Source: Nocardioides sp. Root190 (GTDB lineage Bacteria; Actinomycetota; Actinomycetes; Propionibacteriales; Nocardioidaceae). Taken from it: 64,000 nucleotides of DNA. The notes below the pieces were generated by a model. That model was not told the DNA's origin. It did not search any database and worked only from the letters and a program-made list of their open reading frames with translations. The stretch spans positions 209,612-273,611 of the forward strand of contig NZ_LMIA01000001.1 of the NCBI RefSeq assembly GCF_001428565.1. Direction: 5' to 3'. The position numbers and the translations under genes were made by a program. Positions 1 through 28,291 of the stretch are shown here, one piece after another (position 1 is the first letter of the stretch; each line of letters opens with the position of its first letter).

Positions 1-377
1 ACCTCGTCCTTGAGCTCGGAGTAGGTGATGTCGCGCTTGTCGTCGATCGGTTCGCCGACCCAGTGGATCGCGACCTTGTCGCCGCGGCCGGCCTCGACGT
101 GGCGGTCCACGCAGTTGTAGGCCGCGTTGAGGGTGCCGCCGACGAACCACTTCGCGAACGGCGGGTTCGACCAGTCCAGGACCTGGTCCCACTTCGTGGC
201 CCAGGAAAGACGCTCGGCCTGGGTGGCCCAGAAGCCCTCACGGTCGGCCTTCGCAGTGTCGTAGGCGCCGGCCGTGAGGTTGGCCGAAGCGGCCAGCTCG
301 GCCGGCGGCTCGAACCGACGGTCCTCCTTGAGCAGGTTCGCGAGGGTCTCGTCGGTCCGGTTGGCGGTGTCGGTCAC
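1..377 (-). CDS. acs: Acetyl-CoA synthetase (acetate-CoA ligase), N-terminal part
   Basis: The gene runs off the left edge; about 125 N-terminal residues are visible. It would activate acetate to acetyl-CoA through acetyl-AMP in the cytoplasm. The visible part is the ACAS_N region, with features typical of the family such as WSNPPFAKWFVGGTLNAAYN and HWVGEPIDDKRDITYSEL. The GTG start at 377 is chosen because the family homology begins just after it. It lies 28 bases downstream of the crotonase gene and on the same strand, so it may be the last gene of the catabolic operon and use C2 units, or be an independent housekeeping gene. The AMP-binding domain and the catalytic lysine region lie outside the window. 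Confidence 0.88.
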   Translation of the reverse strand, partial: MTDTANRTDETLANLLKEDRRFEPPAELAASANLTAGAYDTAKADREGFWATQAERLSWATKWDQVLDWSNPPFAKWFVGGTLNAAYNCVDRHVEAGRGDKVAIHWVGEPIDDKRDITYSELKDE

Positions 378-405
378 TGATGAGCTTTCGAGTAGCGGGA
401 GGTGG

Positions 406-1113
406 TCAGGAGGTGGCGGACGCAGCGCACAGCGCTTGCTCGAGCTCGAGCGCGGCGGCACCTGCCAACATGATCTTGGCGGCATCGAGCTGATCCGCGG
501 GAAGCCGAGCGAGCATGGCAGCCTGGCCCAGAGCGACGTCGACGACGTGGCTCGACGGGACCACGTCGGCGACCAGACCCCACTCGAGGGCCTCCCGCGC
601 CGTGAACCTGCGGCCGCCCAGGGTCAGCTCACGGGCGCGATCAACGCCGACCCACCGGGTCAGAGCCGCACGCAAGTTGCGGTCGGGGTGCTCGCCCAGC
701 TCGCAGGACGTGGTGCTGAGCACGGCATCGTCAGCCAGGACTCGAAGGTCGCAGGCGAGAGCAAGAGCGAGACCCTCCCCCGTGCAGCGACCACGCACCG
801 CCGCGATGACGGGCTTGTGCACGGTGGCGAGCATGTGGACGACCTGCGCCGTCTGCAGCTCCAGCTCACGCACACCGATCACCGGATCACGCGACAGCCT
901 CGCCGCGCCCTCGTCGAGGTCGCGGCCCTCACAGAAGTCCTGCCCGCTCCCCCGCAGGACGACCGCCGAGATCGCAGGATCGTCACCGACCTGGCGAAGC
1001 GAGAGCAGGAGCTGGGCTCGCGCCGCGGAATCCAGTGAGGGCCGTCCTTCGGAGGCATCGATGTCAATGGTGGCGATTCCCCGTCGCACCGCCATCCGGA
1101 TCGACGCCGTCAT
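406..1113 (-). CDS. Enoyl-CoA hydratase/isomerase (crotonase) family protein
   Basis: This is a 235-residue crotonase-fold protein. The oxyanion-hole region (PVIAAVRGRCTGEGLALALACD) and the following helix fit the family, which acts on CoA thioesters. By eye, the glutamate that follows the GGG motif in canonical hydratases (Glu144 of rat mitochondrial hydratase) is replaced by alanine, while the second acid (CELGEHPD region) is kept. Plain hydration is therefore uncertain; isomerase, thioesterase or lyase activity is possible. ATG at 1113 overlaps the stop of the upstream paralogue by four bases (ATGA), so the two are translationally coupled. It probably acts late in degradation of CoA-activated products from the upstream glutathione pathway. 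Confidence 0.75.
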   Translation of the reverse strand: MTASIRMAVRRGIATIDIDASEGRPSLDSAARAQLLLSLRQVGDDPAISAVVLRGSGQDFCEGRDLDEGAARLSRDPVIGVRELELQTAQVVHMLATVHKPVIAAVRGRCTGEGLALALACDLRVLADDAVLSTTSCELGEHPDRNLRAALTRWVGVDRARELTLGGRRFTAREALEWGLVADVVPSSHVVDVALGQAAMLARLPADQLDAAKIMLAGAAALELEQALCAASATS

Positions 1114-1766
1114 CGCGCAGCCTCCCCCACGGTCCGCGCATCGGGAGCTGCCCACATCGTCCGGGTCGACCGGCGGCGGCGAGGCAGCGGACGCGAGAGG
1201 GCGATCACCGGGCGCGCGCTGACGGCGTATGCATCCTCCTGGGCCAGGGCGAGCACGTCGCCTGCTGGCACCACCCGCACGTCGACGCCCCACTCCGCCA
1301 GGCTCGCCGGGTCGATAACGCCGGACGACAGCAGTCGCCGGCCCACCTCGGGACCGACTTCCTCGAACAGCAGCTGACGTGCCGCACCGCGGTCCGATGC
1401 TCCGGGCGTCGGGCACAGGATCGCGTCGTGCGCGACGTAGCGGCGAGGACAAGCCAGTGCTAGAGCCAACCCGGCACCGATGCAGGCACGCTGGACTGCC
1501 GCGATGACGGGTACCGGGTGTCGCGTGATCACATCGACGAGGAGCTCGATCTCGGGAAGGTCGTCGCGCCCGGCTGCGAACAAGTCGTCAACGCCGCTCA
1601 GCACCACGGCCCTGGCAGCAGAATCGGCCGCGACCTCGAGCAGCACGCCGGACAGCTCGACGGCGAGCTCCGGTCCGAGCACCCCACGTTGCCCGGACCA
1701 GTTCATCACCACCGTGACGACTCCGGCGCTCCTCGACACGGCGAGGTCGTTGCTTCTCGAGGTCAT
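1110..1766 (-). CDS. Degenerate enoyl-CoA hydratase-like (crotonase-fold) protein
   Basis: This 218-residue protein is a crotonase-superfamily relative of its downstream neighbour. It keeps the core PVPVIAAVQRACIGAGLALALAC but has no recognisable catalytic glutamate at either usual position (a proline-threonine-proline stretch stands where PE is expected). It also ends in an arginine-rich tail instead of the usual C-terminal helices. It may be a non-catalytic partner that forms a mixed oligomer with the 235-residue crotonase, to which it is coupled by a four-base overlap. The start codon at 1766 follows a spacer of about 130 bases after the aldehyde dehydrogenase gene; I saw no strong promoter there, so read-through from the dehydrogenase is likely. 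Confidence 0.65.
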   Translation of the reverse strand: MTSRSNDLAVSRSAGVVTVVMNWSGQRGVLGPELAVELSGVLLEVAADSAARAVVLSGVDDLFAAGRDDLPEIELLVDVITRHPVPVIAAVQRACIGAGLALALACPRRYVAHDAILCPTPGASDRGAARQLLFEEVGPEVGRRLLSSGVIDPASLAEWGVDVRVVPAGDVLALAQEDAYAVSARPVIALSRPLPRRRRSTRTMWAAPDARTVGEAAR

Positions 1767-1897
1767 GTCTGCCTCCTGTCCGTGATGTCAGCTGCCTCAC
1801 CGGGCACCAGTGCCGGTCAGGTCGAGGACGATGCGCGCCCGGCACCGATCCGGTCCGGCCAAGGACAGAAGACCGGGCGCGCATCCGATCGTGGTCG

Positions 1898-3328
1898 TCA
1901 GCGCTTGACGCTGACCACCTTGATGTTGGTGTAGGCGAGGAGGCCGTGCCTCGAACCTTCGACGCCGACGCCGGACTGCTTGATGCCGCCGAAGGGCACC
2001 GACGCAGTGACGACCGGATGCTGGTTGATCCAGACAGAACCGGCCTCCAGACGCTCGGCGACCGCCGCAGCGCCGTCGGGGTCCGAGGTCCACACCGATG
2101 CACCGAGACCGAAGGACGTGCTGTTGGCACGCTCGATCGCGTCCTCGAGGTCGGTGTAGGTCATGATCGGGAGGATCGGCCCGAAGGGCTCCTCGTCGAC
2201 CAGGGCCACGCCCTCGGACACGTTGCGCACCAGCGTGAAGGGGAACCAGTAGCCGGGTCCCTCCGGGACCTCTCCCTCGAAGAAGACATCGGCACCGTTG
2301 GCGCGTGCATCCTCGGCGAGCCGCTTGACGTGAGCCAGCTGGGCGGCGTTCTGGACCGGGCCGGCAACAACGCCCTCCTGGGTGCCGGGACCGACGACGA
2401 CCTTGGCGGCCTCGGCAGCCAGCACCTGGCTGTACTCCTCGAGCTTCGACTCCGGCACGTAGAGGCGCTTGAGGGCCGCGCACACCTGTCCAGTGTTGGA
2501 GAAGGCTGCCCAGAACAGGTCCTTGCCGATGACCTGCGGGTCGGCGTCCTCGAGCACGATGCCCGCGTCGTTCCCACCGGCCTCGAGGGTGACGCGCTTC
2601 AGCGTGTCAGCGGCGGCCTTCATGATGGCCTTGCCGGTGGGGACCGAGCCGGTGAAGGCGATCTTGTCGATGCCCTCGTGAGTGGTGAATGCGCGGCCGA
2701 GCTCGTCGCCGCCCGCCAGAACCTGGAGGACGCCGGCGGGCAGCGCCTCCTGGAGCAGCTCGCCGAGGCGCAGCGTCGCGACGGGGGTGTACGGCGACGG
2801 CTTGAGGATCATCACGTTGCCGGCAACCAGCGCAGGCACGAGCTTGAACATCGCCGCGAGCACCGGGTAGTTCCACGCGGTGATGGCACCCACGACGCCG
2901 ATCGGCTCGTGGCGGACCTCGACCCGCCCGGTCTCGTCGTCCTTGATGACCTCCGGCTCGAGCTCGATGGTGCCGAAGTACTCGACCTGGCGCAGGGAGG
3001 CCATGATCTCGCCCTTGGCATTGCCCAGCGGCTTGCCCTGCTCTCGCATGACCAGCTCGGCGAGCTCGTCGATGTTGTCGTTCACCACCGCTCCGACGCG
3101 ACGGATAGCGTTCTGGCGCTCGGGCACGGGCAGCGCACGCCACGTCGCAAGGGCCGAGCGGGCTGCGGCGACGGCCTCGTCCAACTGCTCGACAGTGGCG
3201 GCGGGAACCTCGATGAAGGGCTCGCCGGTGGACGGGTCGATGACCGCGATGGTGTCGACGGACGACACCGCGGTGCCGTTGATGGTGAGCTGGGGAACCT
3301 TGTAGCCCGTTGCGGGTGCGGAGGTCAT
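1898..3328 (-). CDS. NAD(P)-dependent aldehyde dehydrogenase
   Basis: The 476-residue product is a full-length ALDH-superfamily enzyme that oxidises an aldehyde to an acid in the cytoplasm. Visible motifs are AWNYP with the catalytic asparagine (N153), the cofactor-site FTGSVPTGKAI, the general base E249 in LEAGGN, and the nucleophile C283 in GQVCAALKR. The start at 3328 is preferred over an ATG ten codons upstream because AAAGGCG precedes it and the ALDH fold begins there. It follows the two glutathione transferase genes, the position of aldH genes in isoprene and styrene glutathione clusters. It may oxidise the glutathionyl aldehyde made by the SDR or a downstream arylacetaldehyde. The substrate is inferred from context only. 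Confidence 0.88.
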   Translation of the reverse strand: MTSAPATGYKVPQLTINGTAVSSVDTIAVIDPSTGEPFIEVPAATVEQLDEAVAAARSALATWRALPVPERQNAIRRVGAVVNDNIDELAELVMREQGKPLGNAKGEIMASLRQVEYFGTIELEPEVIKDDETGRVEVRHEPIGVVGAITAWNYPVLAAMFKLVPALVAGNVMILKPSPYTPVATLRLGELLQEALPAGVLQVLAGGDELGRAFTTHEGIDKIAFTGSVPTGKAIMKAAADTLKRVTLEAGGNDAGIVLEDADPQVIGKDLFWAAFSNTGQVCAALKRLYVPESKLEEYSQVLAAEAAKVVVGPGTQEGVVAGPVQNAAQLAHVKRLAEDARANGADVFFEGEVPEGPGYWFPFTLVRNVSEGVALVDEEPFGPILPIMTYTDLEDAIERANSTSFGLGASVWTSDPDGAAAVAERLEAGSVWINQHPVVTASVPFGGIKQSGVGVEGSRHGLLAYTNIKVVSVKR

Positions 3329-3379
3329 GGAACGCCTTTCACAGTGCAGAGTGGTCATGGGTTCACCGGACCGTTCGGT

Positions 3380-4111
3380 TCAGGCCGGCGCCGGCGCTGG
3401 CGCCGGAGTGGGAGTCGGAGCGACACCGAAGAGCCGCTGGTACTGGTCGCTGGACAGACCGGTCGGCGCACCGGAGCCCGCCGGCCGCTCGGCCACTCGG
3501 GCCTTCGCGGACGGCCTGTCGGAGATGCGCTGTGACCACGCTGCCAGTGCGGGGTAGTCCGCCAGCGCGACGCCATAGGCCTTGAGTACCCGGGTCCAGG
3601 GGAAGCAGGCCAGGTCGGCGATCGAGAGGTCGCCGCCGACAAGGAACTCGCGGCCGTCGGCGAGCTGGCTCTCCAAGACGTCGCAGGTCCGCTTGGTCTC
3701 GTTGACGAACCGGGCGGTGCTGTACTCGTCCACGACGCCCGCATCGGGGGCGTAGGTCGTGAAGTGCGCGGCGTTGCCCGCGGCCGGCCCCTGGTTGGCC
3801 ACCTGCCAGTACACCCAGCAGGTGGCCTCCCAGCGGTCGTTCTCGTCCTCGGGCAGCAGACGGCCGGTCTTGCTCGCGAGGTACTGCAGGATCGCTCCCG
3901 ACTCAAAGATCCGCACCGGTCGACCATCGGGACCGTCATGGTCGACGATGGCCGGAATCTTCGCGTTCGGGTTGATCCGCTGGAACTCCGCCGTGAACTG
4001 CTCCCCCTCCTTGACCGCGACCCAGTGCACCTCGTAGGGCAGCCCGAGCTCCTCGAGAGCCATGTGGATCTTCCGCCCGTTGGGCGTCAGGTCGTAGTAG
4101 AGGTCGATCAC
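3380..4111 (-). CDS. styJ: Glutathione S-transferase, StyJ/IsoJ type
   Basis: The 243-residue protein has an N-terminal thioredoxin-like glutathione-binding domain (YYDLTPNGRKIHMALEELGLPYEV near the start, NPNAKIPAIVD with the cis-proline, ESGAILQYLA) and an all-helical C-terminal domain. It resembles Nu-class (YghU/YfcG-like) transferases. In the isoprene and styrene systems the second transferase, J, is thought to remove glutathione from the CoA-activated conjugate; that role is inferred from order and class. An odd feature is the C-terminal tail of alternating threonine/alanine and proline. It lies nine bases after the other transferase gene. Assignment as J rather than I rests on gene order and on similarity recalled by eye. 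Confidence 0.82.
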   Translation of the reverse strand: MIDLYYDLTPNGRKIHMALEELGLPYEVHWVAVKEGEQFTAEFQRINPNAKIPAIVDHDGPDGRPVRIFESGAILQYLASKTGRLLPEDENDRWEATCWVYWQVANQGPAAGNAAHFTTYAPDAGVVDEYSTARFVNETKRTCDVLESQLADGREFLVGGDLSIADLACFPWTRVLKAYGVALADYPALAAWSQRISDRPSAKARVAERPAGSGAPTGLSSDQYQRLFGVAPTPTPAPAPAPA

Positions 4112-4120: not shown

Positions 4121-4843
4121 TCAGATTCCGAAGCGGTCACGCATGCGGTTCTCGTACGCGACGAGGCCAGTCTTGCTGCGGGCGTAGTCGCGGCCGGCCC
4201 AGTCCCACGGGGTCGGGTCGGTGATCTGGCGCAGCGTCGAGTACACGGTCGCGTCGTAGGACGTCGGCTCGTCGCCGAGCAGGAACTGCTTGTCGCCGAT
4301 GAAGGCCTCGATCGCGTCCAGGTCCTCCTTGAGCGCGGCGAGCACGTCCTCGTCGGGGCGCTTGCCGGTGCCCTGCTTGTCCTGCTGGTCGGCGATCCGG
4401 TCGCGCAGGGCGTACAGGAACTCACGCACCGGCGCGGGCGGGTCGTCGGTTCCGACCATGAACGGGATGTACTTCTCGAACTCGGCCGGGTAGCGCCAAC
4501 GCGGCTGGATGATGCCGGTCCAGTAGGTGTACTCCTCGACCATCCGCTGGAAGGCCAAGCCCTGCGCGTGCTCGGCTGGGCTCAACGAGGCGTCGAGCTT
4601 GTCGCCGTACTTGTCCTTGAGGTACTGGATGATGCGGGTCGAGTCGTGGACCTGGGTGCCGTCCTCGTCGACGATCCGCGGCAGCTTCGCGGTCGGCGAG
4701 TCCTTCTGCAGCGTGGTCGGGTCCTGCTGGACGAAGGTGAACGGGATCTCCGCCATCGTCAGGTAGTTGGTGACCTTCGTGACGAAGGGGCTGACACAGG
4801 CCAGGCCCCACGCCGGGCCGTATCCGTAGAGGGTGATCGTCAT
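4121..4843 (-). CDS. styI: Glutathione S-transferase, StyI/IsoI type (epoxide-opening)
   Basis: This 240-residue GST-fold protein opens with YGYGPAWGLACVSPFVTKVTNYL and has AKLPRIVDEDG (cis-proline loop) and DSTRIIQYL (gamma-glutamyl contact). That is the metaxin-like lineage to which the isoprene epoxide transferase IsoI belongs. IsoI-type enzymes attach glutathione to the epoxide carbon, giving a 1-hydroxy-2-glutathionyl product. Here the expected substrate is the epoxide from the StyA-like monooxygenase. It is third in the CoA-transferase/SDR/GST/GST block. Its divergence from the neighbouring transferase shows the two are not recent duplicates and probably do different jobs. Confidence 0.82.
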   Translation of the reverse strand: MTITLYGYGPAWGLACVSPFVTKVTNYLTMAEIPFTFVQQDPTTLQKDSPTAKLPRIVDEDGTQVHDSTRIIQYLKDKYGDKLDASLSPAEHAQGLAFQRMVEEYTYWTGIIQPRWRYPAEFEKYIPFMVGTDDPPAPVREFLYALRDRIADQQDKQGTGKRPDEDVLAALKEDLDAIEAFIGDKQFLLGDEPTSYDATVYSTLRQITDPTPWDWAGRDYARSKTGLVAYENRMRDRFGI

Positions 4844-4889: not shown

Positions 4890-5588
4890 TCACCAGGGCA
4901 GGATGTCGCCGTTGGCGTGCTGGAACTTGCCGCCGGTTTCGACGGTCAGGGAGTCAAGCACCGAGATCAGGTTCGATGCCGACTGCTGAGGGGTGACCAG
5001 GATGCTGGCGGCCCTCTCGCGGTCCTCGTCGGTCATGGCGTCGAGGAGACCGGTGTTCACCATGCCCGGGTGCAGCGCCTGGACGGCGACACCACCCTTG
5101 GACAGGTCGTGGTGAAGGTTGAGTGCGACCATGTTGGCCGCCGCCTTCGAGATGCGATAGGCGTAGTCGCCACCGCTGGTGTTGTCGTTCATCGACCCGA
5201 CACGGCTCGTCAGGATGCCGACCTTGCCGCCCTCGACGAGGAAGCCACGGAGGGCGCGCACCACCCGGAGCGGACCCATGGTGTTGATCTCGAACTGCTT
5301 GCGTACGTCGTCGTAGTCGACCGTCTCGATGTTGTCGAGGTACATCACGCCAGCGACGTGGACGAGCCACTCGACCTGGACATTGTCGTTCGCAAGTCGC
5401 TTCGCCAGGGCGTCGACCGCCTCGTCGGAGGTCACGTTGACGCCAGACTCGACAGCGATCCCCTGCTCGGCGAGCTCCTTGCCGTCACCCATGGTCACGG
5501 CCAGGACGTCGTGTCCGGCCTCGTGCAGCTGCTCGGCGATGGAGCGCGCGATGCCGCGGTCGGCTCCGATGATGACTCGAGTGGACAT
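4890..5588 (-). CDS. styH: Short-chain dehydrogenase, StyH/IsoH type
   Basis: The 232-residue protein is a classical-size SDR. A variant nucleotide-binding glycine motif IGADRGIA lies at residues 7-14, HVAGV stands in the NAG position, and the catalytic pair is Y144/K148 in YRISK with a serine around 128-132. In isoprene degraders IsoH oxidises the alcohol of the glutathione conjugate to aldehyde and acid using NAD. The equivalent step here would give a glutathionyl arylacetic acid from the opened styrene oxide. It starts just after the CoA-transferase gene (three-base gap) and 46 bases before the StyI-like gene. Confidence 0.82.
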   Translation of the reverse strand: MSTRVIIGADRGIARSIAEQLHEAGHDVLAVTMGDGKELAEQGIAVESGVNVTSDEAVDALAKRLANDNVQVEWLVHVAGVMYLDNIETVDYDDVRKQFEINTMGPLRVVRALRGFLVEGGKVGILTSRVGSMNDNTSGGDYAYRISKAAANMVALNLHHDLSKGGVAVQALHPGMVNTGLLDAMTDEDRERAASILVTPQQSASNLISVLDSLTVETGGKFQHANGDILPW

Positions 5589-5591: not shown

Positions 5592-6836
5592 TCAGGCTCC
5601 TTGGGTGATCACGTGGGTCTCGTCGTCCGAAGCCGGCACCTCGCCGGTCTCGTTGCCGACCACACCCTCTGCGAGGAGGCGGTCGATGGTGCTCTGCTCG
5701 AAGCCGGCCTGGACCAGAACCTCGATACTGTGCTCGCCGAGCCCGGGCGCTCCCAGGGGGACCTCGACGGTAGTGCGGGAGAAGCGTGCCGCGGGCCGCG
5801 CCTGACGCAGCCGTCCGGCGATGGGGTGGTCACTCTCGATGATGGTGCCCGAGGCGATGACCTGCGGGTCCTCGATGACCTCGAAGCGACGGAGGGCAGG
5901 AGCGCAGGGAACGTCGTGATCAGTGAGGAGCGCCAGCCACTCGTGGCCCGGGCGCTCCATCAGCACCTTCTGGATCTCCGTGAGCCGGTCGTTGACGTTG
6001 GCGTCGCGCTTGGCGGGGGTGTTGAACCGCTCGTCGTCGAGCAGGTCGGGGCGCTCGGCCGCATTGCAGAAGGCCGTCCACTCCTTGTTGCTCATCGTCG
6101 ACACCGTGATGAACCCGTCAGCGGTCTCATAGATCAGATCGATGAAGCTGGCTGCCTTCTCCGGCTCGACCGGCTTGTCGACGAAGGTGTAGGCGTTCAT
6201 GTCGCTCGCCCACATGAACGCGAGGACGCTGTCGAGCATGGACAGCCGGACATGCTGACCCTCTCCCGTCGACGCGCGTGCCACGAGCGCCGCGCAGACC
6301 GCCTGGGCGCCGGTGATGGCGGTGAGCTTGTCCGGCAAGACCGTTCGGATCAGGCGAGGCCGATCCTGATCGGAGCCGGCCTGGATCGTGGTGAGGCCAG
6401 AGACGGCCTGGACGATCGGGTCGTAGGCGCGTCGGTCGGCGTACGGGCCTTCCTCACCGAAACCGCTGATGGAGAGGTAGACCAGGCCGGGGTTGATGGC
6501 GCTCAGCTCCTCGTAGGAGATCCCGAGCCTCTCGACAACGCCGGGGCGGAAGTTCTGGACGAGCACGTCCGACTTCTGGACCAGCTCACGCAGGACCGCC
6601 TTGCCGTTCTCGGACTTGAGGTCCAAGGTCAGCGAACGCTTCGAGCGGTTCACGTTGAGGAACATCGAGGCGAGCCCGCCCGAGCGGTTCGGAAGGGAGC
6701 GCACGTGGTCGCCGCTCTTGGGCGGTTCGACCTTGATGACCTCTGCACCCTGGTCCCCGAGGATGGACGCCGCCCAAGGGCCGGAGAGCATCGCGGAGAG
6801 ATCCAGGACGCGAACGCCAGTCAGTGGACCGGGCAT
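5592..6836 (-). CDS. styG: Family III CoA-transferase (CaiB/BaiF), StyG/IsoG type
   Basis: This 414-residue protein is a full-length family III CoA-transferase. Typical parts are the N-terminal GVRVLDLSAMLSGPWAA, the RSKRSLTLDLK segment and the catalytic aspartate D139 in AYDPIVQAVSG. It would move CoA onto the glutathionylated acid so that glutathione can then be removed. It is the first gene after the promoter at 6875-6904, with AGGT a few bases before ATG at 6836, and leads the transcript for SDR, two GSTs, ALDH and probably the crotonases. Racemase or carnitine-type transferase activity is possible for the family, but the order G-H-I-J favours IsoG/StyG. Confidence 0.85.
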   Translation of the reverse strand: MPGPLTGVRVLDLSAMLSGPWAASILGDQGAEVIKVEPPKSGDHVRSLPNRSGGLASMFLNVNRSKRSLTLDLKSENGKAVLRELVQKSDVLVQNFRPGVVERLGISYEELSAINPGLVYLSISGFGEEGPYADRRAYDPIVQAVSGLTTIQAGSDQDRPRLIRTVLPDKLTAITGAQAVCAALVARASTGEGQHVRLSMLDSVLAFMWASDMNAYTFVDKPVEPEKAASFIDLIYETADGFITVSTMSNKEWTAFCNAAERPDLLDDERFNTPAKRDANVNDRLTEIQKVLMERPGHEWLALLTDHDVPCAPALRRFEVIEDPQVIASGTIIESDHPIAGRLRQARPAARFSRTTVEVPLGAPGLGEHSIEVLVQAGFEQSTIDRLLAEGVVGNETGEVPASDDETHVITQGA

Positions 6837-19546: not shown

Positions 19547-19564
19547 CCGGCTCTCAGCAGCCGG
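19547..19564. repeat. Small hairpin between yrbE and the ATPase gene
   Basis: CCGGCT and AGCCGG form a six-base-pair stem with a six-base loop in the only sizeable gap (67 bases) inside the styA-mce transcript. There is no T-run, so it is not a canonical terminator. It may mark a processing or attenuation point. Confidence 0.35.
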
Positions 19565-19570
19565 ATGGAG

Positions 19571-21331: not shown

Positions 21332-21880
21332 TCAGTCTCGCTCCTTCGCGGTCAGGTCGACGGGCGAGGGCCGGGAGTGGTACTGGCTGGCGTAGAAGAG
21401 GAGGGGCACGCCCTCACCACTGCCGCAGGCAGTGACACGGGCAAGGAAGAGCATGTGGTCGTGCACGGGCACCTCCTCGAACACCTCGCACTCGAACCAG
21501 GCGAGGCAGTCCTTGAGCGTGGGCACCGCGGCGCGCTTGAGGAACTCGGGCGCGACCGAACCGTCGCGGGCACGGGCGAAGTGGTTCGACGCACCGTGCT
21601 GGTCCTCCAGCAGGATGCTCGCTCCGTAGCGCCCGGTCGTGCGCACGATCTCGTGCGCACGACCGGGCCGGAGCGACACCATGACGGTGGCCGGCTCCAG
21701 GCTCAGCGACACGAAGCTGTTCACCGTGGCGCCATGGAATCCACCGTCCTGGTCCTCGCAGCTGATGACGGCCACGCCGGTGGCGAACCGGGAAACGTGC
21801 CGCCGAAAATCGGCCGCATCGACCGTCTGCTCCCTCACGAGGTCGCGCTCCTGGGTCTGGGTGGCGTGGCCGGTCATCAC
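21332..21880 (-). CDS. styB: Flavin reductase of a two-component monooxygenase (StyB-like)
   Basis: The 182-residue protein belongs to the HpaC/StyB flavin reductase family. Motifs are FRRHVSRFATGVAVIS, GATVNSFVSLSLEPATVMVSL (FMN/FAD-binding loop) and LLFYASQYH near the end. It reduces FAD with NADH and passes FADH2 to the epoxidase. GTG at 21880 gives a four-base overlap with styA; ATG three bases on is an equally good start. The order styA-styB matches characterised styrene monooxygenase operons. Confidence 0.88.
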   Translation of the reverse strand: MMTGHATQTQERDLVREQTVDAADFRRHVSRFATGVAVISCEDQDGGFHGATVNSFVSLSLEPATVMVSLRPGRAHEIVRTTGRYGASILLEDQHGASNHFARARDGSVAPEFLKRAAVPTLKDCLAWFECEVFEEVPVHDHMLFLARVTACGSGEGVPLLFYASQYHSRPSPVDLTAKERD

Positions 21881-23109
21881 TCGCTCGCCGACTGGCAGAA
21901 CGAGGCAACCCGCTCAGGGGACGAGAAGATGTCCCACTGGTTCTGCGGGTGGTTGAAGTTGTCGGTGAACGTGTCGGCCAGGGTCCGGTCCTGGGCGACG
22001 GCGCCGACGAACATGCCGAACTCGGGCGGGAAGCTCTCGAGGTTCGCCATCATCGCGTTCGTCCACTGCGTGGCGGCGTGGACACGGTCGTTGCGACGGT
22101 TGTCGACCTTCTGCACGAAGCGGGCGTCGAAGATCTCGTTGGCGATGATCTCCTCCGCGACGATCCAGGCCGCCTGGGCCGCCGCGTTCGCACCCTGGCC
22201 GAGCATCGGGTCGACGGTGTTGTGGACGTCGCCGAGCGCGAGGGCGATGGTGCCGCCCTCGAGGACCGCGGAGGTCTGCCGGACGGCCGGGACGACGCCG
22301 CCCTGAAGGATGTCCAGGCTGCTGTTGGCCAGATCGAACTCCGCCTGGTCGATCCGCTCGAAGCAGGTCGGGTAGTGCTTCGCGAGCTTCTCGAGGAGCA
22401 GGGTCTTGAAGGCCTCGGGGTCGTCGTCGTACTTGGTCTTGGCCAGGATCTCGAGCTCGCCGCCGGGCAGGTTCTCCATCACGAGAGCGTTCTGGAGTCC
22501 GTTGAAGGTGAGGGTCGGGATCTCGATCATCTCGCCGGCGCCGGGCGAGAAGTACATCGTCACCGAGCGCGACGGGAGCTGCGCGATGCCCTTGAAGATG
22601 CCGACACACAGCTGGCGCTGGGGCGTGGTGTGGGGCGAGAGCTCGGGGATCTTCGGGAACATGTCGCCGGTGCCCTTGCCGGTCGAGACGACCACGAGGT
22701 CGAACTCCTCGGCCAGGCCCTTGTAGTCGTCTCCCTGGATGGCGCGGTACTCGACGTTGCCGCCCCGGTCGATGAAGTCCTGGAGCAGTGCCGGGAGGTA
22801 GATGCGGTAGTCGACGGCGCGGCTCGGGGAGCGCAGGTCGCCGTAGAAGCGCATCGGCTCGGGGAGCCCGATGTAGTAGTGGTGGCCGAAGTAGCCCACC
22901 TCGCCTGCCTGCCAGTGGTTGACGCCGAGTGCCTTCTCCTTGTCGATCGTGACGGAGAAGTGGGCGACGGTGTTGGGCAGGCGCATGTCGCGGTAGTCCT
23001 CGACACGCTTGTCGCTGTAGAGGGTGACGTCGACGCCAGCCTGCTGCAGGTGGAGCGCCAGGTGAAGACCACCCGTACCGGCCCCCACGATTCCGATCTT
23101 CTTGGACAT
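21877..23109 (-). CDS. styA: Styrene monooxygenase, epoxidase subunit (StyA)
   Basis: The 410-residue protein is a single-component FAD-binding epoxidase of the StyA/IndA group: IGIVGAGTGGLHLAL at residues 5-19, then PMRFYGDLRSPSRAVDYR, FSPGAGEMIEIPTL, a central DLANSSLDILQGGVVPA and GDVHNTVDPMLGQGAN (FAD-binding). Six positions said to separate styrene from indole monooxygenases all carry the styrene-type residue: N46, V48, H50, Y73, H76 and S96. It converts styrene-like alkenes to epoxides with FADH2 and oxygen. ATG at 23109 is chosen because AGGAGTGAGG precedes it and the GxGxxG motif lies at the normal distance. It is first in the transcript that also carries styB and the mce genes. Confidence 0.92.
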   Translation of the reverse strand: MSKKIGIVGAGTGGLHLALHLQQAGVDVTLYSDKRVEDYRDMRLPNTVAHFSVTIDKEKALGVNHWQAGEVGYFGHHYYIGLPEPMRFYGDLRSPSRAVDYRIYLPALLQDFIDRGGNVEYRAIQGDDYKGLAEEFDLVVVSTGKGTGDMFPKIPELSPHTTPQRQLCVGIFKGIAQLPSRSVTMYFSPGAGEMIEIPTLTFNGLQNALVMENLPGGELEILAKTKYDDDPEAFKTLLLEKLAKHYPTCFERIDQAEFDLANSSLDILQGGVVPAVRQTSAVLEGGTIALALGDVHNTVDPMLGQGANAAAQAAWIVAEEIIANEIFDARFVQKVDNRRNDRVHAATQWTNAMMANLESFPPEFGMFVGAVAQDRTLADTFTDNFNHPQNQWDIFSSPERVASFCQSASE

Positions 23110-23150
23110 CCTCACTCCTGATGTGTTCTGGGTCTCACGATTGGTAAGAA

Positions 23151-23181
23151 CTAAGATAGTGCTAAGTAACTTCTTTGTCAC
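23151..23181 (-). promoter_or_regulatory. styA promoter with two CTAAG sites
   Basis: On the minus strand GTGACA (23176-23181) and TATCTT (23153-23158) are 17 bases apart. CTAAG pentamers at 23151-23155 and 23162-23166 overlap the -10 box and spacer. The transcript would start about 40 bases before styA. This is the only promoter-like sequence in the 116-base gap between the disulfide reductase gene and styA. Confidence 0.55.
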
Positions 23182-23225: not shown

Positions 23226-24626
23226 TCAGAGCGCGTCGGCGAGGCGTCGCGCAGCCAGCTGGACGATCTCCCAGACAGTGGCGAAGGGCGGCGCGTAGGC
23301 GAGATCCGCCTCAGCGAGGTCGTCGACGCTCGCGCCGACCCAGAGCGCGGCCGCCACGGTGTCGATGCGCTTGGCCGCCGCGCGCCCGCCAACAATCTGA
23401 GCGCCGAGGAGGGCACGAGAGCCGGGATCGGCGAGGACCTTAACAGCCGCCGGCGCAGCCTCCGTCATGTATCCGCTGGCCGTACGACCCTCGGTCACCA
23501 TCGAGGAAATCTGGAAGCCGGCCGCCTCGGCTTCCCGGGTGCTGAGGCCGGTCCGCGAGATCTCGACGTGCGTGTCGCCATGGACGTAACGGGTGATGGC
23601 GGTGCCCAGCACGCCATTGAAGGAGCGCACTCCGGGTGTCACCAGATTGGTGCCGACGATGCGGCCCTGCTTGTTCGCGTGGGTGCCGAGCGGGCTGAAG
23701 GTCCAATCACCAGTGAGACGGTGACGCACCTCGCAACAGTCACCTGCAGCCCAGATACCGGGAGCGACGGAGCCGTCCGGCTCCGCCCGGAAACCTCCCC
23801 AGTCGCCGGTGGCGAGACCGGATGCGGTCCCGAAGTCACTGACCGGCCGCACTCCGGTCGCCAGCACCAGCAGGTCGCAGCGGTGAATGTTGCCATCGGC
23901 CGACGCGACGCTGGTGACCCAGCCACGGTCGTCGGTCTCGAGCCCGACGACCTCCGCCGCTCCGGCGACCTGAACACCGGCCTCGGCGAGCTGCTTCTCC
24001 ACACGAGCGCTCATGTCGGGGTCGAGGCTGCTCATCACCGCCGAGCGGGTGAGCAGCGTGACCTCGAGCCCCCGCATCCGTGCAGCCTCGGCCATCTCGA
24101 CGCCGATGTACCCTCCACCCGCCACCACCACGCGAGGCGTCGACGGCCCGTCGCCGGCGGCAGCGAGCAGCAGATCGATCCACTGCTGGCCGTCGATGAG
24201 CGTCTTGCACGGCGCCACTCCCCCGACCAGGCTGCCGTCCGCGCGCCTCGCCCACGCCGGGATGATTGGCGACGCGCCGGTGGCGATCACGAGCTGGTCG
24301 TACCCCAACTGCTTCTCGGTGCCGGCGTGCTCGTAGGTCACCAGGCCCTTCGCCGCGTCGATGCCGATGGCCCGCGCTCCGGTGATGAGGTCGACACCCA
24401 TCTCCCGGTGCCTCGACGGACCACGGGCGATCAGCTCGTCCGACGACTCGACCTCGCCCGAGACCCAGTAGGGAATCCCGCACGCGGAGTAGGAGGTGTG
24501 GTCGGTCTTCTCGAGGGCGATCACCTCGACGGCGCGTCCGACCTGCTTGGCCGTGCGCAGCGCCTGGTGTGCAGCACTCATCCCCGCTGCGTCAGCACCC
24601 AGGACCAGGATTCGCTCGGCGCTCAT
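23226..24626 (-). CDS. CoA-disulfide reductase-like flavoprotein
   Basis: The 466-residue protein is a pyridine-nucleotide-disulfide oxidoreductase of the single-cysteine CoA-disulfide-reductase class: FAD motif LGADAAGMSAAHQA, redox cysteine C49 in SYSACGIPYW, and a second dinucleotide motif VVVAGGGYIGVEMAEAA. The C-terminal dimerisation domain is complete. A similar gene accompanies gshB in isoprene-degrading clusters. It may keep CoA or glutathione reduced during heavy flux through the glutathione-CoA pathway. ATG at 24626 overlaps the gshB stop by four bases. Confidence 0.85.
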   Translation of the reverse strand: MSAERILVLGADAAGMSAAHQALRTAKQVGRAVEVIALEKTDHTSYSACGIPYWVSGEVESSDELIARGPSRHREMGVDLITGARAIGIDAAKGLVTYEHAGTEKQLGYDQLVIATGASPIIPAWARRADGSLVGGVAPCKTLIDGQQWIDLLLAAAGDGPSTPRVVVAGGGYIGVEMAEAARMRGLEVTLLTRSAVMSSLDPDMSARVEKQLAEAGVQVAGAAEVVGLETDDRGWVTSVASADGNIHRCDLLVLATGVRPVSDFGTASGLATGDWGGFRAEPDGSVAPGIWAAGDCCEVRHRLTGDWTFSPLGTHANKQGRIVGTNLVTPGVRSFNGVLGTAITRYVHGDTHVEISRTGLSTREAEAAGFQISSMVTEGRTASGYMTEAAPAAVKVLADPGSRALLGAQIVGGRAAAKRIDTVAAALWVGASVDDLAEADLAYAPPFATVWEIVQLAARRLADAL

Positions 24627-25699
24627 CGGTCGGCCCCCGAGGCCAACCGCCGGCGTACGGCGCCCTCCATCCATGTCACGACCTCAGCGCCCAGCCTCGT
24701 CCCGCTGAGCGCATCGATCTCGCGAACACCCGTCGGGCTGGTCACGTTGACCTCGGTGAGCAGCCCACCGATGACGTCGATGCCGGCGAAGACGATGCCG
24801 TGACGGCGTAGGAGCGGAGCCAGCTCAGCACAGATCCGTCGGTCATCCTCGGTCACCTCATCGGCAACCGTGACCGCACCCGTTGCCATGTTGCAGCGGA
24901 AGTCGGTGTCGCAGGCGACCCGCCGCACCGATCCGAGCGGACGTCCGTCCAGCACGATGATGCGGCGATCACCGTCGACGACTCCGTCGATCCATCGCTG
25001 CACCACCACGAGGTCCCGGCCCCTCGCCGTGGCCTGCTCGAGGATCGACACGAGGTTGGGATCTCCGTGGGCGAGCACCAGTATGCCGCGACCGGCCATC
25101 GCGTCGGTCGGCTTGAGCACGGCCTTGCCCCAAGCCTCCACACGCTCGAGAACCTCGGCTATGTCGGCGGTCACCAAGGTCTCCGGGCCGAGCTCTGGCA
25201 CCTGGAGGGCGAAGAACTTCTCGTTGACGTTTCTGAGCCCGGCAGGCTCGTTCATCACCAGGGTCCGGGTCGGGTCGGCCAGGTCGAGGACGTAGGTGGC
25301 ACGGAGGTACACCTGGTCAACCGGAGGGTCGGTCCGCATCATGACGACCCGGAAGTCATCGACAGGACGAGACTCCCGATCTCCGAGGTGGAACCAGTCC
25401 TGCGGCGCGATCCACCTCCCCTGGTCGAGCCGGCAGGGCAGCACTCGCAAGGACCGACACTGCGCCATTGGCCGACCGTTGTCGACGGACAGCTCGGAAG
25501 CGGTCGTGACCCACACCCGGTGCCCCTCGTGCTGAGCCGCCTCGATGATGGCCACCGTCGAGTCATGCGCGGGGTTCAGACCGGGCACGGGATCGGCGAC
25601 GACCAACACGTCGAGCGGGTTGGCAGGGGACGGGAGCAGGTCCAACGCATCTCCTAGGTTCCGGGCCCGAGAAGTCGGGCCTTGCGTGACGGGCGTCAC
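24623..25699 (-). CDS. gshB: Glutathione synthetase
   Basis: The protein (358 residues from GTG at 25699) is an ATP-grasp glutathione synthetase joining gamma-glutamylcysteine and glycine. Family landmarks are MMRTDPPVDQVYLRATYVLD, VMNEPAGLRNVNEK, KPTDAMAGRGI and the end motif NVTSPTGVREI. Proteobacterial GshB proteins start near VLVVADPVPGL, so an internal TTG start at 25645 with GGAG six bases upstream may be the true one (340 residues). It is the first gene of a gshB-disulfide reductase unit. Such genes are rare in actinobacteria, which use mycothiol, so transfer with the catabolic island is likely. Confidence 0.9.
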   Translation of the reverse strand: MTPVTQGPTSRARNLGDALDLLPSPANPLDVLVVADPVPGLNPAHDSTVAIIEAAQHEGHRVWVTTASELSVDNGRPMAQCRSLRVLPCRLDQGRWIAPQDWFHLGDRESRPVDDFRVVMMRTDPPVDQVYLRATYVLDLADPTRTLVMNEPAGLRNVNEKFFALQVPELGPETLVTADIAEVLERVEAWGKAVLKPTDAMAGRGILVLAHGDPNLVSILEQATARGRDLVVVQRWIDGVVDGDRRIIVLDGRPLGSVRRVACDTDFRCNMATGAVTVADEVTEDDRRICAELAPLLRRHGIVFAGIDVIGGLLTEVNVTSPTGVREIDALSGTRLGAEVVTWMEGAVRRRLASGADR

Positions 25700-25723: not shown

Positions 25724-25746
25724 GGACTAACTTTCTTAGCGGTCAA
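25718..25746 (-). promoter_or_regulatory. gshB promoter with palindromic CTAA-N5-TTAG element
   Basis: On the minus strand TTGACC (25741-25746) and TATGGT (25718-25723) are separated by 17 bases. The spacer holds CTAACTTTCTTAG (25727-25739), a perfect palindrome in its outer four bases. The block TTGACCGCTAAGAAAGT is close to those before styG and the SCP2-like genes. The gshA promoter must lie in the same 80-base region on the other strand. Confidence 0.6.
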
Positions 25747-25779: not shown

Positions 25780-27060
25780 ATGCCCAGTGCCACGCTAGGG
25801 ATCTCCGTCGACGACCTGGCGGCCGTCAGCCGACAGATGTTCGCGCCCACGAACGAGGATCTTGTCGGCCTCGAGTGCGAGTGGCCGGTCCGTCGATCCG
25901 ACGACCCGCTCGCGCGCCCTGATCTCCACGTGCTCCAGCGCATGGCAGACGCGCCCCTTCCATCCGCCGGCATGGTCACGGTCGAGCCGGGAGGACAGAT
26001 CGAACTGTCCTCCGCCCCCGAGCACTCCGTCGGCGACGCCATCCGCGCCGTCGACGCCGATGCCACCGTGCTCCACGCACGGCTGCGCCGAGCCGGGCTC
26101 GAGCCCGAAGCGGCAGCCGTCGACGCCATTCGCTCCCCGCACCGCATCCTGAACCGTCCGCGCTACAAGGCGATGGAGGCCCACTTCGACCGCGCTGGCG
26201 CGGCAGGCCGCTGGATGATGTGCAACACCGCATCGGTGCAGGTCAACATCAGCAACGACCCGACGGACGCCTGCGGCCGGTGGCGGGTGCTGAACCACAT
26301 CGCTCCCGTCCTGCTCGCCATGTTCGCCAACTCCGGCGCGATCGACGCGGGCGGCACCAGGTGGGCCTCGTCGCGACAGGGAATCTGGCTCAACATCGAT
26401 CCCACTCGGACAGCGCCCGTGGCGGTCGGCCAGGACCCCGCCGCGGACTGGCTCGACTACGCAATGCGCGCCAAGGTGTTCTTCATCCAGACCCAGGGCC
26501 CGACCAGCCCGTGCGGCGTGGCCGTGGGCACGGACATGACGTTCGCGGACTGGTTCCACAAGGGTCACCTCCTCGGCTGGCCGACCCTGGACGACTTCCG
26601 CTACCACCTCACCACCCTCTTCCCGCCCGTGCGACCCCGCGGCTGGGTGGAGCTCCGCATCCTCGATGCCCTGCCCCCCAGCCTGCGAGCAGCGGCCGCA
26701 CTGGTCGTGGCGACCGCAGCGGCCGCAGGGGTACGAGACGACGTCCTCGACCGAGTGCCCGCGACCGACGACCTCTGGGTCGCAGCCGCTCGCGACGGAC
26801 TGGCCAACCGGCGGCTTCGCGCCGCTGCCAGGGTGGTCTCCAGTGTCGTCTCCGCGAACGTCGAGCGCGTCGCCGACCCCGGCCACGTCGACCTCGTCCG
26901 AGACTTCCTGGAGGCTTACACCGACAGGGGGATCGCACCCGGTGACCACTTGTGGCTCCCCCTTCCGATCACCCTTGCCGGTCCGGCAGCAGGGACGATG
27001 CTGCCCATGGCCGAGTCGCCCCTTCCGGCGATCGCAGACGAGGCCGCCTGGACGATCTGA
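25780..27060 (+). CDS. gshA: Glutamate-cysteine ligase (GCS2/EgtA-type)
   Basis: The 426-residue protein belongs to the plant/actinobacterial GCS2 glutamate-cysteine ligase group: GLECEWPVRR near the N-terminus, VEPGGQIELSS (ATP/glutamate site), NTASVQVNI and GWVELRILDALP. Actinobacterial members are often EgtA (ergothioneine synthesis). Here, divergent placement from gshB and the surrounding glutathione transferases favour glutathione synthesis. ATG at 25780 follows GAGGGGGC. It is the only plus-strand gene of the island core and ends at a strong terminator. Confidence 0.85.
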   Translation: MPSATLGISVDDLAAVSRQMFAPTNEDLVGLECEWPVRRSDDPLARPDLHVLQRMADAPLPSAGMVTVEPGGQIELSSAPEHSVGDAIRAVDADATVLHARLRRAGLEPEAAAVDAIRSPHRILNRPRYKAMEAHFDRAGAAGRWMMCNTASVQVNISNDPTDACGRWRVLNHIAPVLLAMFANSGAIDAGGTRWASSRQGIWLNIDPTRTAPVAVGQDPAADWLDYAMRAKVFFIQTQGPTSPCGVAVGTDMTFADWFHKGHLLGWPTLDDFRYHLTTLFPPVRPRGWVELRILDALPPSLRAAAALVVATAAAAGVRDDVLDRVPATDDLWVAAARDGLANRRLRAAARVVSSVVSANVERVADPGHVDLVRDFLEAYTDRGIAPGDHLWLPLPITLAGPAAGTMLPMAESPLPAIADEAAWTI

Positions 27061-27136: not shown

Positions 27137-27161
27137 TGACCCGTCTCGCCGGGACGACGTC

Positions 27162-27611
27162 TCAGACCACCGACACCAGGGCAATGGTCCGGAGTGAGGT
27201 CACCGTGTGCGTCAGCAGGCCCTTCACCACCAGCTTGTGGCGCAGGATCTGACCGAGGACACCCATGCCGCGCTTCGTGAAGAACCCGACCGGCCAGAGG
27301 CCGCCCGCCTTCATCTTGAGCTGCGACACGTCCAGGATCTGGTCGACGCTCGCACGCACGGTCACGATCGGCTTGCCCACGATGCCGTCGTGGACGACGG
27401 CGCCGTGGTCACGGAACATGATCGTGCAAGCCTGGTCGGTGTCAGTGCTGACGACCGCGACCGGGCGCTTCGTGCGCTTGGCGAGCGCGATCCGCTCAGG
27501 GAAGTTCTCGAAGTTCTGCCCGAGGAGCGTACCGACGATGGTTGCGACGCCGTTGGCGGAGTCGCCGGACTGGAGCTTGACCGGGTAGCCGGCCGTCTCT
27601 GCAACGGCCAT
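27162..27611 (-). CDS. Probable SCP2-like lipid-carrier protein
   Basis: The 149-residue protein has no predicted signal peptide or helix anchor. Its middle and C-terminal parts (GKPIVTVRASVDQILDVSQLKM; PVGFFTKRGMGVLGQILRHKLVVKGLLTH) resemble SCP2 sterol-carrier domains, which hold hydrophobic ligands in a tunnel. It starts one base after the stop of the second small carrier gene and shares that promoter, which carries island CTAAG sites. It may bind styrene, its oxide or a fatty-acyl intermediate in the cytoplasm. The family assignment is by pattern only. Confidence 0.5.
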   Translation of the reverse strand: MAVAETAGYPVKLQSGDSANGVATIVGTLLGQNFENFPERIALAKRTKRPVAVVSTDTDQACTIMFRDHGAVVHDGIVGKPIVTVRASVDQILDVSQLKMKAGGLWPVGFFTKRGMGVLGQILRHKLVVKGLLTHTVTSLRTIALVSVV

Positions 27612-27612
27612 G

Positions 27613-28029
27613 TCAGACGTCGTAGTCGATCTCGTCGGCCGCACGACCCCACGACTGGAGGAAGTGGTGGAGCGCGACGGCGTTCTCGATGGCCGCCGAC
27701 ATCGGGCCCTTCTCGAACTTCACCTTGCCCATCACCAGCATCTTGCCGGCCTCGGCGCGCCCCTCCGCCAAGTCCTTCCACGTCTCCATGTCGGCCTTGA
27801 TGTCGAGCCACAGCTCGTCCTGGTCGTACTGGCGACCGGAGGTCCAGGAGACGATCCGACCTTCCTTCCACTCCAAGTGGGACACGAGGTCGTCCCGACC
27901 GAGGACGCCGAAGGCCATCTTGTTGGTGAAGGTCGACGCCTTCTTGAAGCCCTTGTACATCGGCTCACTGGCGTTGGCGGCGTCCATGGCGCCGTCGCAC
28001 CACTCCTGCGAGAAGAACTTGGTAGCCAT
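27613..28029 (-). CDS. SCP2 sterol-binding domain protein
   Basis: The 138-residue protein looks like one SCP2 domain: WKEGRIVSWTSGR, LWLDIKADMETWKDLAEGR and MLVMGKVKFEKGPMSAAIENA follow the usual beta-strand/helix order, including the gate segment before the last helix. Start ATG at 28029 follows AGGAG. It leads a two-gene unit reading toward gshA. A carrier for hydrophobic metabolites would suit the Mce importer and the epoxide chemistry nearby. Confidence 0.65.
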   Translation of the reverse strand: MATKFFSQEWCDGAMDAANASEPMYKGFKKASTFTNKMAFGVLGRDDLVSHLEWKEGRIVSWTSGRQYDQDELWLDIKADMETWKDLAEGRAEAGKMLVMGKVKFEKGPMSAAIENAVALHHFLQSWGRAADEIDYDV

Positions 28030-28167
28030 CTTGGAACTCCTATCAATGGGCAGCACGGCATGTCGTGGCACCGCCGGAGGGCGGAGATGCGTGCCAAGGG
28101 ATGGACCCGACCGTCACTCGCGCGGTGAGCGCTGTGACCGGGGTCACCACAGTCAAGCCGATACTTG

Positions 28168-28194
28168 CTTAGCAGTCAATAACTTCTATCTAAG
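28168..28194 (-). promoter_or_regulatory. CTAAG/CTTAG-containing promoter region of the SCP2-like genes
   Basis: CTTAG (28168-28172), a -35-like TTGACT on the minus strand (28174-28179) and CTAAG (28190-28194) lie about 145 bases upstream of the SCP2 gene. The block TTGACTGCTAAGCAAGT is close to the gshB and styG promoters. I find no convincing -10 box at the right distance. Confidence 0.45.
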
Positions 28195-28291
28195 ATGTTT
28201 GCTGCGCCTGACGTCGCGATCCCTGTGTTCCCGCACTGTCGCACCTTCGGCGAGACTTTGCGGAGCAGACCCGGACAAGAAAGGACGACAC

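Follow-up and report, generated by a model that had tools for sequence, protein, structure and literature searches.

Glutathione-dependent styrene degradation has been described in Gordonia rubripertincta CWB2, where the glutathione S-transferase (GST) StyI has been demonstrated to conjugate styrene oxide with glutathione; StyJ, a GST of the Ure2p type, was proposed to take the glutathione off again (PMC8552685, excerpt). The isoprene cluster of Rhodococcus sp. AD45 comprises isoG-H-I-J, aldH, gshA, gshB, a CoA-disulfide reductase gene and marR, and the strain also makes an isoprene-induced protein of 157 aa without known domains (PMC4676930, excerpt). MCE family proteins lie beside iso clusters of Mycobacterium, for example in strain AT1 (PMC12917321, excerpt), and most mce operons were found in mycobacteria that degrade polycyclic aromatic hydrocarbons (PMC1810536, excerpt). 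The styrene cluster of Rhodococcus opacus 1CP employs the isomerase StyC, and import by two ABC transporters has been postulated for it; StyE of Pseudomonas, named an ABC transporter, is the one styrene-specific active transporter described there (PMC13101518, excerpt). Here we analyse a stretch of 64,000 nucleotides from Nocardioides sp. Root190, called the window below (C1:209612-273611, C1 being the 697-kb contig NZ_LMIA01000001.1 of a 5.0-Mb genome in 14 contigs). Its left part carries a glutathione-dependent styrene-type island in which styAB run directly into an Mce operon with an RND protein and a peptidyl-prolyl isomerase (PPIase), an operon that we are inclined to regard as an importer of an oily alkene.

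The styAB genes run into a complete Mce operon

Genes were called with a simple GC-position script, whose starts are approximate, and families were assigned with the curated NCBIfam cut-offs and Pfam, scanning the open reading frames (ORFs) of the left 35.7 kb except those at about 31.9-34.2 kb. The left 28 kb of the window form one gene run with nearly all genes on the minus strand, in the transcription order gshB, CoA-disulfide-reductase-like gene, styA, styB, yrbEA, yrbEB, Mce ATPase gene, mceA-F, RND gene, PPIase gene, marR, styG, styH, styI, styJ, aldH, two crotonase-fold genes and an acyl-CoA synthetase gene. StyA and StyB both exceed their cut-offs and make up a two-component styrene monooxygenase, the former also matching a solved structure (PDB 3ihm) with 537 bits. 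Their genes overlap by 4 bases, yrbEA begins 1 base after styB, and from there to the PPIase gene no gap is longer than 67 bases. The two YrbE/MlaE permeases, six MlaD-domain proteins and ATPase of this single run constitute an actinobacterial Mce transporter:

21877..23181, minus strand: styA, styrene epoxidase (NCBIfam StyA 658 bits, cut-off 550)
21332..21880, minus strand: styB, flavin reductase (NCBIfam StyB 220 bits, cut-off 200)
20452..21330, minus strand: yrbEA, first MlaE permease (Pfam MlaE 197 bits)
19571..20440, minus strand: yrbEB, second MlaE permease (Pfam MlaE 186 bits)
18691..19503, minus strand: Mce/MlaF-type ATPase (ABC_tran; MlaF 204 bits, below the cut-off of 441)
17461..18687, minus strand: mceA-like, MlaD domain
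16031..17464, minus strand: mceB-like, MlaD domain
14781..16034, minus strand: mceC-like, MlaD domain
13462..14778, minus strand: mceD-like, MlaD domain
12227..13462, minus strand: mceE-like, MlaD domain
10926..12227, minus strand: mceF-like, MlaD domain
8683..10929, minus strand: RND-superfamily protein, HAE3/HpnN/MMPL-like by family search
7529..8686, minus strand: SurA/PpiC-type PPIase at the operon tail (start set from the 4-base overlap)

The second YrbE had been thought missing on account of an ORF without a domain at 19554-20342; the right frame, 19571-20440, encodes a full MlaE protein.

It is the coupling of this operon to styAB, together with the RND protein and the PPIase, that sets the window apart from the known clusters. 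The cluster of strain CWB2 has no Mce, RND or PPIase gene, and its styB is followed instead by genes for a 410-aa membrane protein, an SCP2 pair and five long-helix proteins. The MCE proteins adjoining the iso cluster of Mycobacterium AT1 belong to a different Mce branch (YrbEA 42%, YrbEB 30-33% identity) and accompany IsoA in place of StyA. Mce1 and Mce4 have two YrbE, six Mce proteins and an ATPase as in the window, whereas the RND and PPIase tail and the linkage to hydrocarbon oxygenases distinguish the latter. The likeness to StyE of Pseudomonas is one of transport role. No paper joining 'mce', 'styrene monooxygenase' and 'transporter' was found in the literature searched; the Mce-RND-PPIase run continuing from styAB, a second pairing with styA on another branch, the copies beside cytochrome P450 genes and the predicted SCP2 folds, all treated below, go beyond that record.

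The pathway core is of the CWB2 type

Apart from the Mce operon, the core of the island is the already described glutathione-dependent styrene-type pathway in a rearranged layout. Its remaining genes are:

25780..27060, plus strand: gshA, GCS2-family glutamate-cysteine ligase (Pfam GCS2 135 bits; EgtA model 291 bits, cut-off 371)
24623..25699, minus strand: gshB, glutathione synthase (TIGR01380 358 bits, cut-off 299)
23226..24674 (start approximate), minus strand: CoA-disulfide-reductase-like protein, predicted to recycle disulfide (292 bits, cut-off 458; PDB matches of the CoA-disulfide reductase type)
6929..7474, minus strand: MarR-family regulator (Pfam MarR_2)
5592..6836, minus strand: styG, class III CoA-transferase (Pfam CoA_transf_3 383 bits)
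4890..5588, minus strand: styH, short-chain dehydrogenase/reductase (SDR) (NCBIfam IsoH 373 bits, cut-off 350)
4121..4843, minus strand: styI, epoxide-opening GST (NCBIfam IsoI 386 bits, cut-off 300)
3380..4111, minus strand: styJ, YfcG/Ure2p-type GST, predicted to remove glutathione (173 bits, cut-off 332; PDB matches of the YfcG type)
1898..3358, minus strand: aldH, aldehyde dehydrogenase (ALDH) (Pfam Aldedh 482 bits)

Thus StyA, StyB, the IsoI-type StyI, the IsoH-type StyH and GshB all lie above curated NCBIfam cut-offs; GshA, the CoA-disulfide-reductase-like protein and StyJ fit their families and fall below the equivalog cut-offs. The StyI product matches the solved StyI structure 9qd3 with 288 bits, and in the CoA-disulfide-reductase-like sequence a stretch is visible that we take to be the SxxxC redox-cysteine motif. 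The gshA gene diverges from gshB, and a small gene pair on its right converges on it.

The arrangement of genes is that of pGCWB2 (NZ_CP022581): styA-styB, marR-styG-H-I-J-aldH, the CoA-disulfide-reductase-like gene followed by gshB, and a divergent gshA are shared, as are the SCP2 pair, nearby paa genes and a sequence motif before styG and between gshB and gshA. The compared proteins are 50-71% identical by tblastn (aldH 71%, J 66%, I 55%, H 71%, G 62%, marR 58%, CoA-disulfide-reductase-like 60%, gshB 58%, gshA 50%, StyB 54%, StyA 59%), and the cluster lies on a plasmid in CWB2 and on the large contig here. The CoA-disulfide reductase relative on pGCWB2 is annotated merely as 'FAD-dependent oxidoreductase'. 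The AD45 isoprene cluster has the G-H-I-J block, aldH, the gsh genes, the CoA-disulfide reductase gene and marR in common with the window but a diiron isoprene monooxygenase where the window has StyAB. Since gshA, gshB, marR and the CoA-disulfide reductase gene are known from AD45 and also occur on pGCWB2, they are not additions of the present island. R. opacus 1CP likewise has paa genes and, like CWB2, seven styrene-induced hypothetical genes (PMC13101518, excerpt); it uses StyC, whereas the window cluster is of the glutathione-dependent CWB2 type. StyC was not detected among the scanned ORFs of the window, the rest of the genome having been left out of that search.

The initial annotation had proposed a complete glutathione-dependent styrene-type island with its own gsh genes at 1-28.2 kb, and all the parts it named are there: gshB is above its cut-off and gshA belongs to the GCS2 family, and the comparison with CWB2 that it suggested shows a match in gene set and order. 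Its view of the Mce transporter as an unusual part agrees with the complete operon found here and with the lack of one in the CWB2 cluster. The searches agree with its statement that the window holds neither isoprene monooxygenase nor paa genes: no isoABCDEF product was found among the scanned ORFs of 1-35.7 kb, no IsoA match at 32-64 kb, and no Paa protein over cut-off among the scanned ORFs of the left 35.7 kb.

Placement of StyI

The nearest StyI proteins from a named genome are those of Nocardioides sp. Root240 (97%) and Root682 (95%). A contig scan with the StyI alignment, limited to sequences containing either of two peptide patterns, gave 26 loci, and among the 58 genomes searched as relatives (its own included) an IsoI-type GST over the cut-off was found only in the window's own genome. 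In a tree of 28 StyI/IsoI proteins, with AD45 absent from the rows and a midpoint root used for drawing only, the window StyI and the five other StyA-linked rows lie together on one side of a branch (support 91/91, present in 90% of the bootstrap trees), and every row with IsoA seen in its locus falls outside it. The nearest row outside is a second locus of Pseudonocardia endophytica in which neither oxygenase was seen. The styG-H-I-J-aldH block of the window therefore has its StyI among the StyA-linked rows, in line with the earlier expectation that the GST and SDR belong to Iso/Sty clades, StyI and StyH both being over the Iso family cut-offs; StyH and StyJ are placed by family and identity. 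An identity as an isoprene cluster was rejected, IsoA not having been found in the stretches searched and StyI standing outside the IsoA-linked rows.

Recurrence of the Mce subtype beside oxygenase genes

The Mce subtype was defined by a YrbEA match with E <=1e-90, and the family-wide searches scored the best few candidates per genome. It occurs in only 19 of 341 Nocardioidaceae genomes, in 24 copies, so a generic Mce operon of the genus was rejected. StyA over the cut-off occurs in four of the 341, and all four have the subtype in or adjoining the sty cluster. The styAB-Mce arrangement is the same in Nocardioides sp. Root240 and Root682; Aeromicrobium sp. Root495 has the Mce run behind aldH instead (YrbEA 84%, ATPase 94%). 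The window strain has 22 YrbE matches and about 11 Mce operons, and the rough chance of a subtype copy lying this near styA is 0.003-0.004 per genome, in four genomes of which two are close kin.

Outside the family, P. endophytica has three StyA genes, one of which follows an Mce-RND-PPIase run on the same strand, with an SCP2 pair beyond yrbEA. A single-gene YrbEA tree was mostly unresolved with long branches, and we therefore relied on a concatenation of nine Mce proteins (13 rows, 3519 columns, unrooted). There the sty copies of the three Nocardioides and Aeromicrobium stand apart from the rest (100/100) and the P. endophytica copy is on another branch (100/100), so that the pairing of sty and Mce genes most simply arose twice. 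A single ancestral sty-Mce unit is disfavoured by this branch, the unrooted tree leaving room for one gain with losses.

The surroundings of all 24 copies, read over about 38 kb for most, include 4 with sty genes, 10 with a P450 gene and 10 without either, among them one truncated at a contig end; 14 of 24 are thus near StyA or a P450, as judged with two reference P450s. Six of the P450-linked copies share a P450-ferredoxin-reductase layout with alcohol dehydrogenase (ADH) and ALDH genes, two share another, and two are single. With the same references no oxygenase was found in six stretches round eight other YrbE sites; these controls come from the window's genome alone, and one of them holds a more distant Mce operon with an RND/PPIase tail. 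The Fisher values obtained (0.013 and 7e-6) ignore relatedness.

The window's genome contains two further copies of the subtype. One, at C10:388-415 kb (a second contig; YrbEA 79%), lies with genes for a P450, a ferredoxin-like protein, a ferredoxin reductase, an ADH, an ALDH, an acyl-CoA synthetase and an epoxide hydrolase, and the P450 layout is also present in five other Nocardioidaceae genomes. By score this P450 comes nearest to P450tol (630 bits), followed by P450terp (436 bits), an enzyme of terpineol chemistry. P450tol belongs to toluene/styrene chemistry and epoxidises substituted styrenes (PMC9112060, excerpt). The other copy, at C14:66-81 kb, is beside genes for a photolyase, an SDR, an amine-oxidase-like protein and a DUF3556 protein, in a layout common to several congeners.

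Predicted SCP2-fold carriers and the hypothetical genes of CWB2

The small gene pair to the right of gshA encodes proteins that, by comparison of predicted models (with the model confidence score pLDDT) with solved SCP2 structures, both have the SCP2 fold:

27613..28029, minus strand: predicted SCP2-fold carrier, 138 aa, upstream member (relative CWB2 RS23880; pLDDT 94; SCP2 structure 2cx7, Foldseek E 1.8e-9)
27162..27611, minus strand: predicted SCP2-fold carrier, 149 aa, downstream member (relative CWB2 RS23875; pLDDT 78; UbiJ-SCP2, Foldseek E 1.7e-5)

The Pfam SCP2 model (PF02036) misses its cut-off at 27162-27644 (13.5 against 21.3 bits), and a six-frame search of the genome with it shows neither gene; a Nocardioides relative of the upstream protein is named 'SCP2 sterol-binding domain-containing protein' in its source annotation. 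Relatives of the carriers occur in CWB2 (52% and 60%), P. endophytica, Mycobacterium AT1, Root240 and Root682. The SCP2-type genes had been listed in the initial annotation among the parts not known from the AD45 and CWB2 clusters. CWB2 has them as well: its relatives are filed as hypothetical, RS23880 and RS23875 belonging to a group of eight hypothetical genes that lies between gshA and styB.

That interval (L004:20365-25779 of the pGCWB2 locus read) consists of the five long-helix proteins, the 410-aa membrane protein and the SCP2 pair. Four of the five long-helix proteins have one membrane helix by eye, and they resemble helical envelope proteins without an MCE domain. Seven hypothetical genes common to CWB2 and 1CP are induced by styrene, five of them with a membrane section and without a known role (PMC13101518, excerpt). 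We infer that this seven-gene set is the CWB2 stretch between gshA and styB, including at least one and probably both SCP2 genes.

An operator-like motif

A sequence motif recurs at three places in the window:

6892..6904, minus strand: operator-like motif TTGACNNCTAAGA, exact, before styG (motif search)
25734..25746, minus strand: operator-like motif TTGACNNCTAAGA, exact, between gshB and gshA, overlapping CTAA-N5-TTAG
28167..28179, minus strand: TTGACNNCTAAGA with one mismatch, before the SCP2 pair

Two exact sites and one with a single mismatch compare with 0.18 expected in the window, and none of 100 shuffles reached three. The CTAA-N5-TTAG part is palindromic at two sites. Counted by eye, the motif precedes styG or isoG at 9 of 14 Actinomycetota loci and at 0 of 6 Pseudomonadota loci with the gene, several of the 142 loci overlapping one another; 55 control loci, together 999,785 bases, do not contain it. 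It also stands before a second ALDH gene outside the window, on the other strand. Mycobacterium AT1 has the same motif before isoG and, on the other strand (L028:4114-4126 of the locus read), about 100 bases before yrbE of the unrelated Mce operon beside the iso cluster.

The shared motif is probably the site of action of a MarR-type repressor, which would then govern styG, gshB/gshA and the SCP2 pair. No site precedes styA, so that gshB, the CoA-disulfide-reductase-like gene, styAB and the mce genes would be read from the gshB promoter.

Phenylacetate genes and thiol background

The lower pathway had been expected elsewhere in the genome, but it lies on the same contig, starting just 5.8 kb beyond the left edge of the window. 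PaaK (703 bits, cut-off 646) is encoded 5.8-7.1 kb left of the window, PaaABCDE and PaaZ at 11-17 kb and PaaI at 20 kb, all over their cut-offs, so that these phenylacetate genes lie 6-20 kb to the left. In between, at L003:1181-10241 of the locus read, genes for an acyl-CoA synthetase, a PAS protein, the second ALDH, an AraC regulator, PaaK and a GMC oxidoreductase connect the island with the paa genes. The distance from paaA to the nearest styA is 11-40 kb in each of the six genomes or records whose StyA exceeds the cut-off, which favours an aryl-alkene as the substrate; in the other two genomes searched PaaA is present and StyA was not found.

MshC, of mycothiol synthesis, is over its cut-off in all five sty genomes, and in these GshB over the cut-off occurs only in clusters of the sty kind. 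Linked glutathione synthesis genes, gshB and gshA, are present in the window, so the island has glutathione synthesis of its own, as the initial annotation proposed. A weaker pair resembling glutamate-cysteine ligase and GshB lies outside the island in the window's genome (C1:377638-379403, 81 and 251 bits), and such a pair is present in each of the three Nocardioides, Root240 and Root682 included.

Proposed route and alternative explanations

From gene content and order we infer the following route, in which the substrate, the direction of transport, regulation, co-transcription and each reaction in this strain are predictions. The Mce complex of two YrbE proteins, ATPase and six Mce proteins, with the RND protein and the PPIase, would draw a hydrophobic aryl-alkene from the envelope, and the two SCP2-fold proteins would hold the alkene or its epoxide in the cytoplasm. 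StyAB would form the epoxide and StyI open it with glutathione; StyH and AldH would carry out the oxidation from alcohol to acid, StyG and StyJ would make the CoA ester and strip the glutathione, and PaaK and PaaABCDEZ next door would finish phenylacetate. GshA and GshB would supply glutathione, with the CoA-disulfide-reductase-like protein recycling the disulfide.

A wider proposal, which we advance only tentatively, is that the Mce branch with the RND and PPIase tail consists of dedicated small-hydrocarbon importers that styAB-glutathione islands took up on two occasions and P450 clusters repeatedly, and that feed the oxygenase through paired SCP2-fold carriers; the hypothetical genes of CWB2 and 1CP (SCP2 and long-helix, mostly membrane-anchored) would be the counterpart of the Mce operon. 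For the uptake of styrene-like hydrocarbons by actinobacteria, a transporter tied to an epoxidase in one gene run provides a candidate. The cargo of Mce systems, usually sought among sterols and fatty acids, becomes testable with cheap volatile substrates and in strains that are not pathogenic, and the glutathione-dependent styrene routes to chiral epoxides and substituted phenylacetic acids gain a candidate uptake system.

Several observations weigh against alkene import. Strain CWB2 degrades styrene without an Mce operon in its cluster, and the Aeromicrobium StyI is sister to CWB2 StyI, so the operon is not needed for the chemistry. Styrene passes membranes easily, so that an importer would be surprising except for a heavier or sorbed substrate, and the RND protein points to export no less than to import. 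In Aeromicrobium, the 40-kb stretch searched did not show the SCP2 pair, and two more genomes of the family have weaker StyA-type matches (225-231 bits) without the Mce subtype. By the references used, neither StyA nor a P450 accompanies 10 of the 24 subtype copies, and 7 of these have surroundings with a photolyase, amine-oxidase-like or DUF3556 gene in common. The six P450-linked copies of the C10 type represent a single arrangement and hence are not independent, and one of the single ones (genome G242) has weak P450 matches and no reductase. As to the pathway itself, 3 of the 11 genomes or records with an IsoI-type GST have no StyA match and 2 have only a weak one, and because IsoA clusters use the same G-H-I-J block, this block alone does not fix the substrate. 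The second, weaker ligase and synthase pair means that the island may not be the sole source of glutathione.

Some of these points would fit a different role for the Mce-RND-PPIase block, namely envelope maintenance or solvent tolerance, in which it would rebalance or remove lipids or pump out the alkene or epoxide; we consider this unlikely, though it is the main alternative. In Gram-negatives, Mce/Mla systems (Ttg2/Mla) maintain the asymmetry of outer-membrane lipids, export is a frequent role of RND proteins, a PPIase suits the folding of cell-surface proteins, a general protection module would recur by different oxygenases as this subtype does, and CWB2 manages without the block. However, the single base between styB and yrbEA is what one would expect of a step specific to the substrate, those actinobacterial Mce systems whose cargo is known act as importers (Mce4, cholesterol), the cluster includes predicted SCP2-fold carriers as well, and the stretches round the strain's other Mce operons gave no oxygenase by the references (0 of 6).

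The pathway substrate could be a plant terpenoid or an isoprene-like alkene instead of styrene, with StyAB acting as a broad epoxidase. The 'Root' strain names of the nearest relatives, the P450tol/P450terp-like P450 beside the sister transporter copy and the G-H-I-J block shared with isoprene clusters point this way; against these stand the 658 bits of StyA on the styrene model, the grouping of StyI with StyA-linked and not IsoA-linked rows, and the phenylacetate genes adjoining in six of six StyA genomes or records, and we regard such a substrate as improbable.

Least probable of all is that the operon is a mere passenger of the island, importing some lipid that has nothing to do with alkenes: about 11 Mce operons (22 YrbE matches) would make one near any cluster unremarkable and 10 of 24 copies have no oxygenase nearby by the references, but this one lies inside the sty run and not at its edge, a pairing with Mce of the other branch recurs in P. 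endophytica, and the rough chance of such nearness is small in each of the four genomes, two of them close kin.

Genes at the ends of the island

Downstream of aldH, two crotonase-fold genes overlap by 4 bases:

1110..1766, minus strand: second, shortened crotonase-fold protein, 218 aa (Pfam ECH_1 57 bits)
406..1113, minus strand: crotonase-fold protein, 235 aa (Pfam ECH_1 137 bits)

These correspond to the 'degenerate crotonases' of the initial annotation. The two crotonase-fold genes stand; the term degenerate is plausible by eye, one protein being short with deletions.

Right of the island, at 27689-34000, the GC content falls to 62-64%. Encoded there are an AAA_21 ATPase at 27689-29977, whose true start probably lies further in, and, at 31350-31931, a nuclease of the RusA type. 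A defence role of this right neighbour was rejected, the PADLOC matches being weak and covering mainly the AAA part. The ATPase and the nuclease suggest the border of a mobile element.

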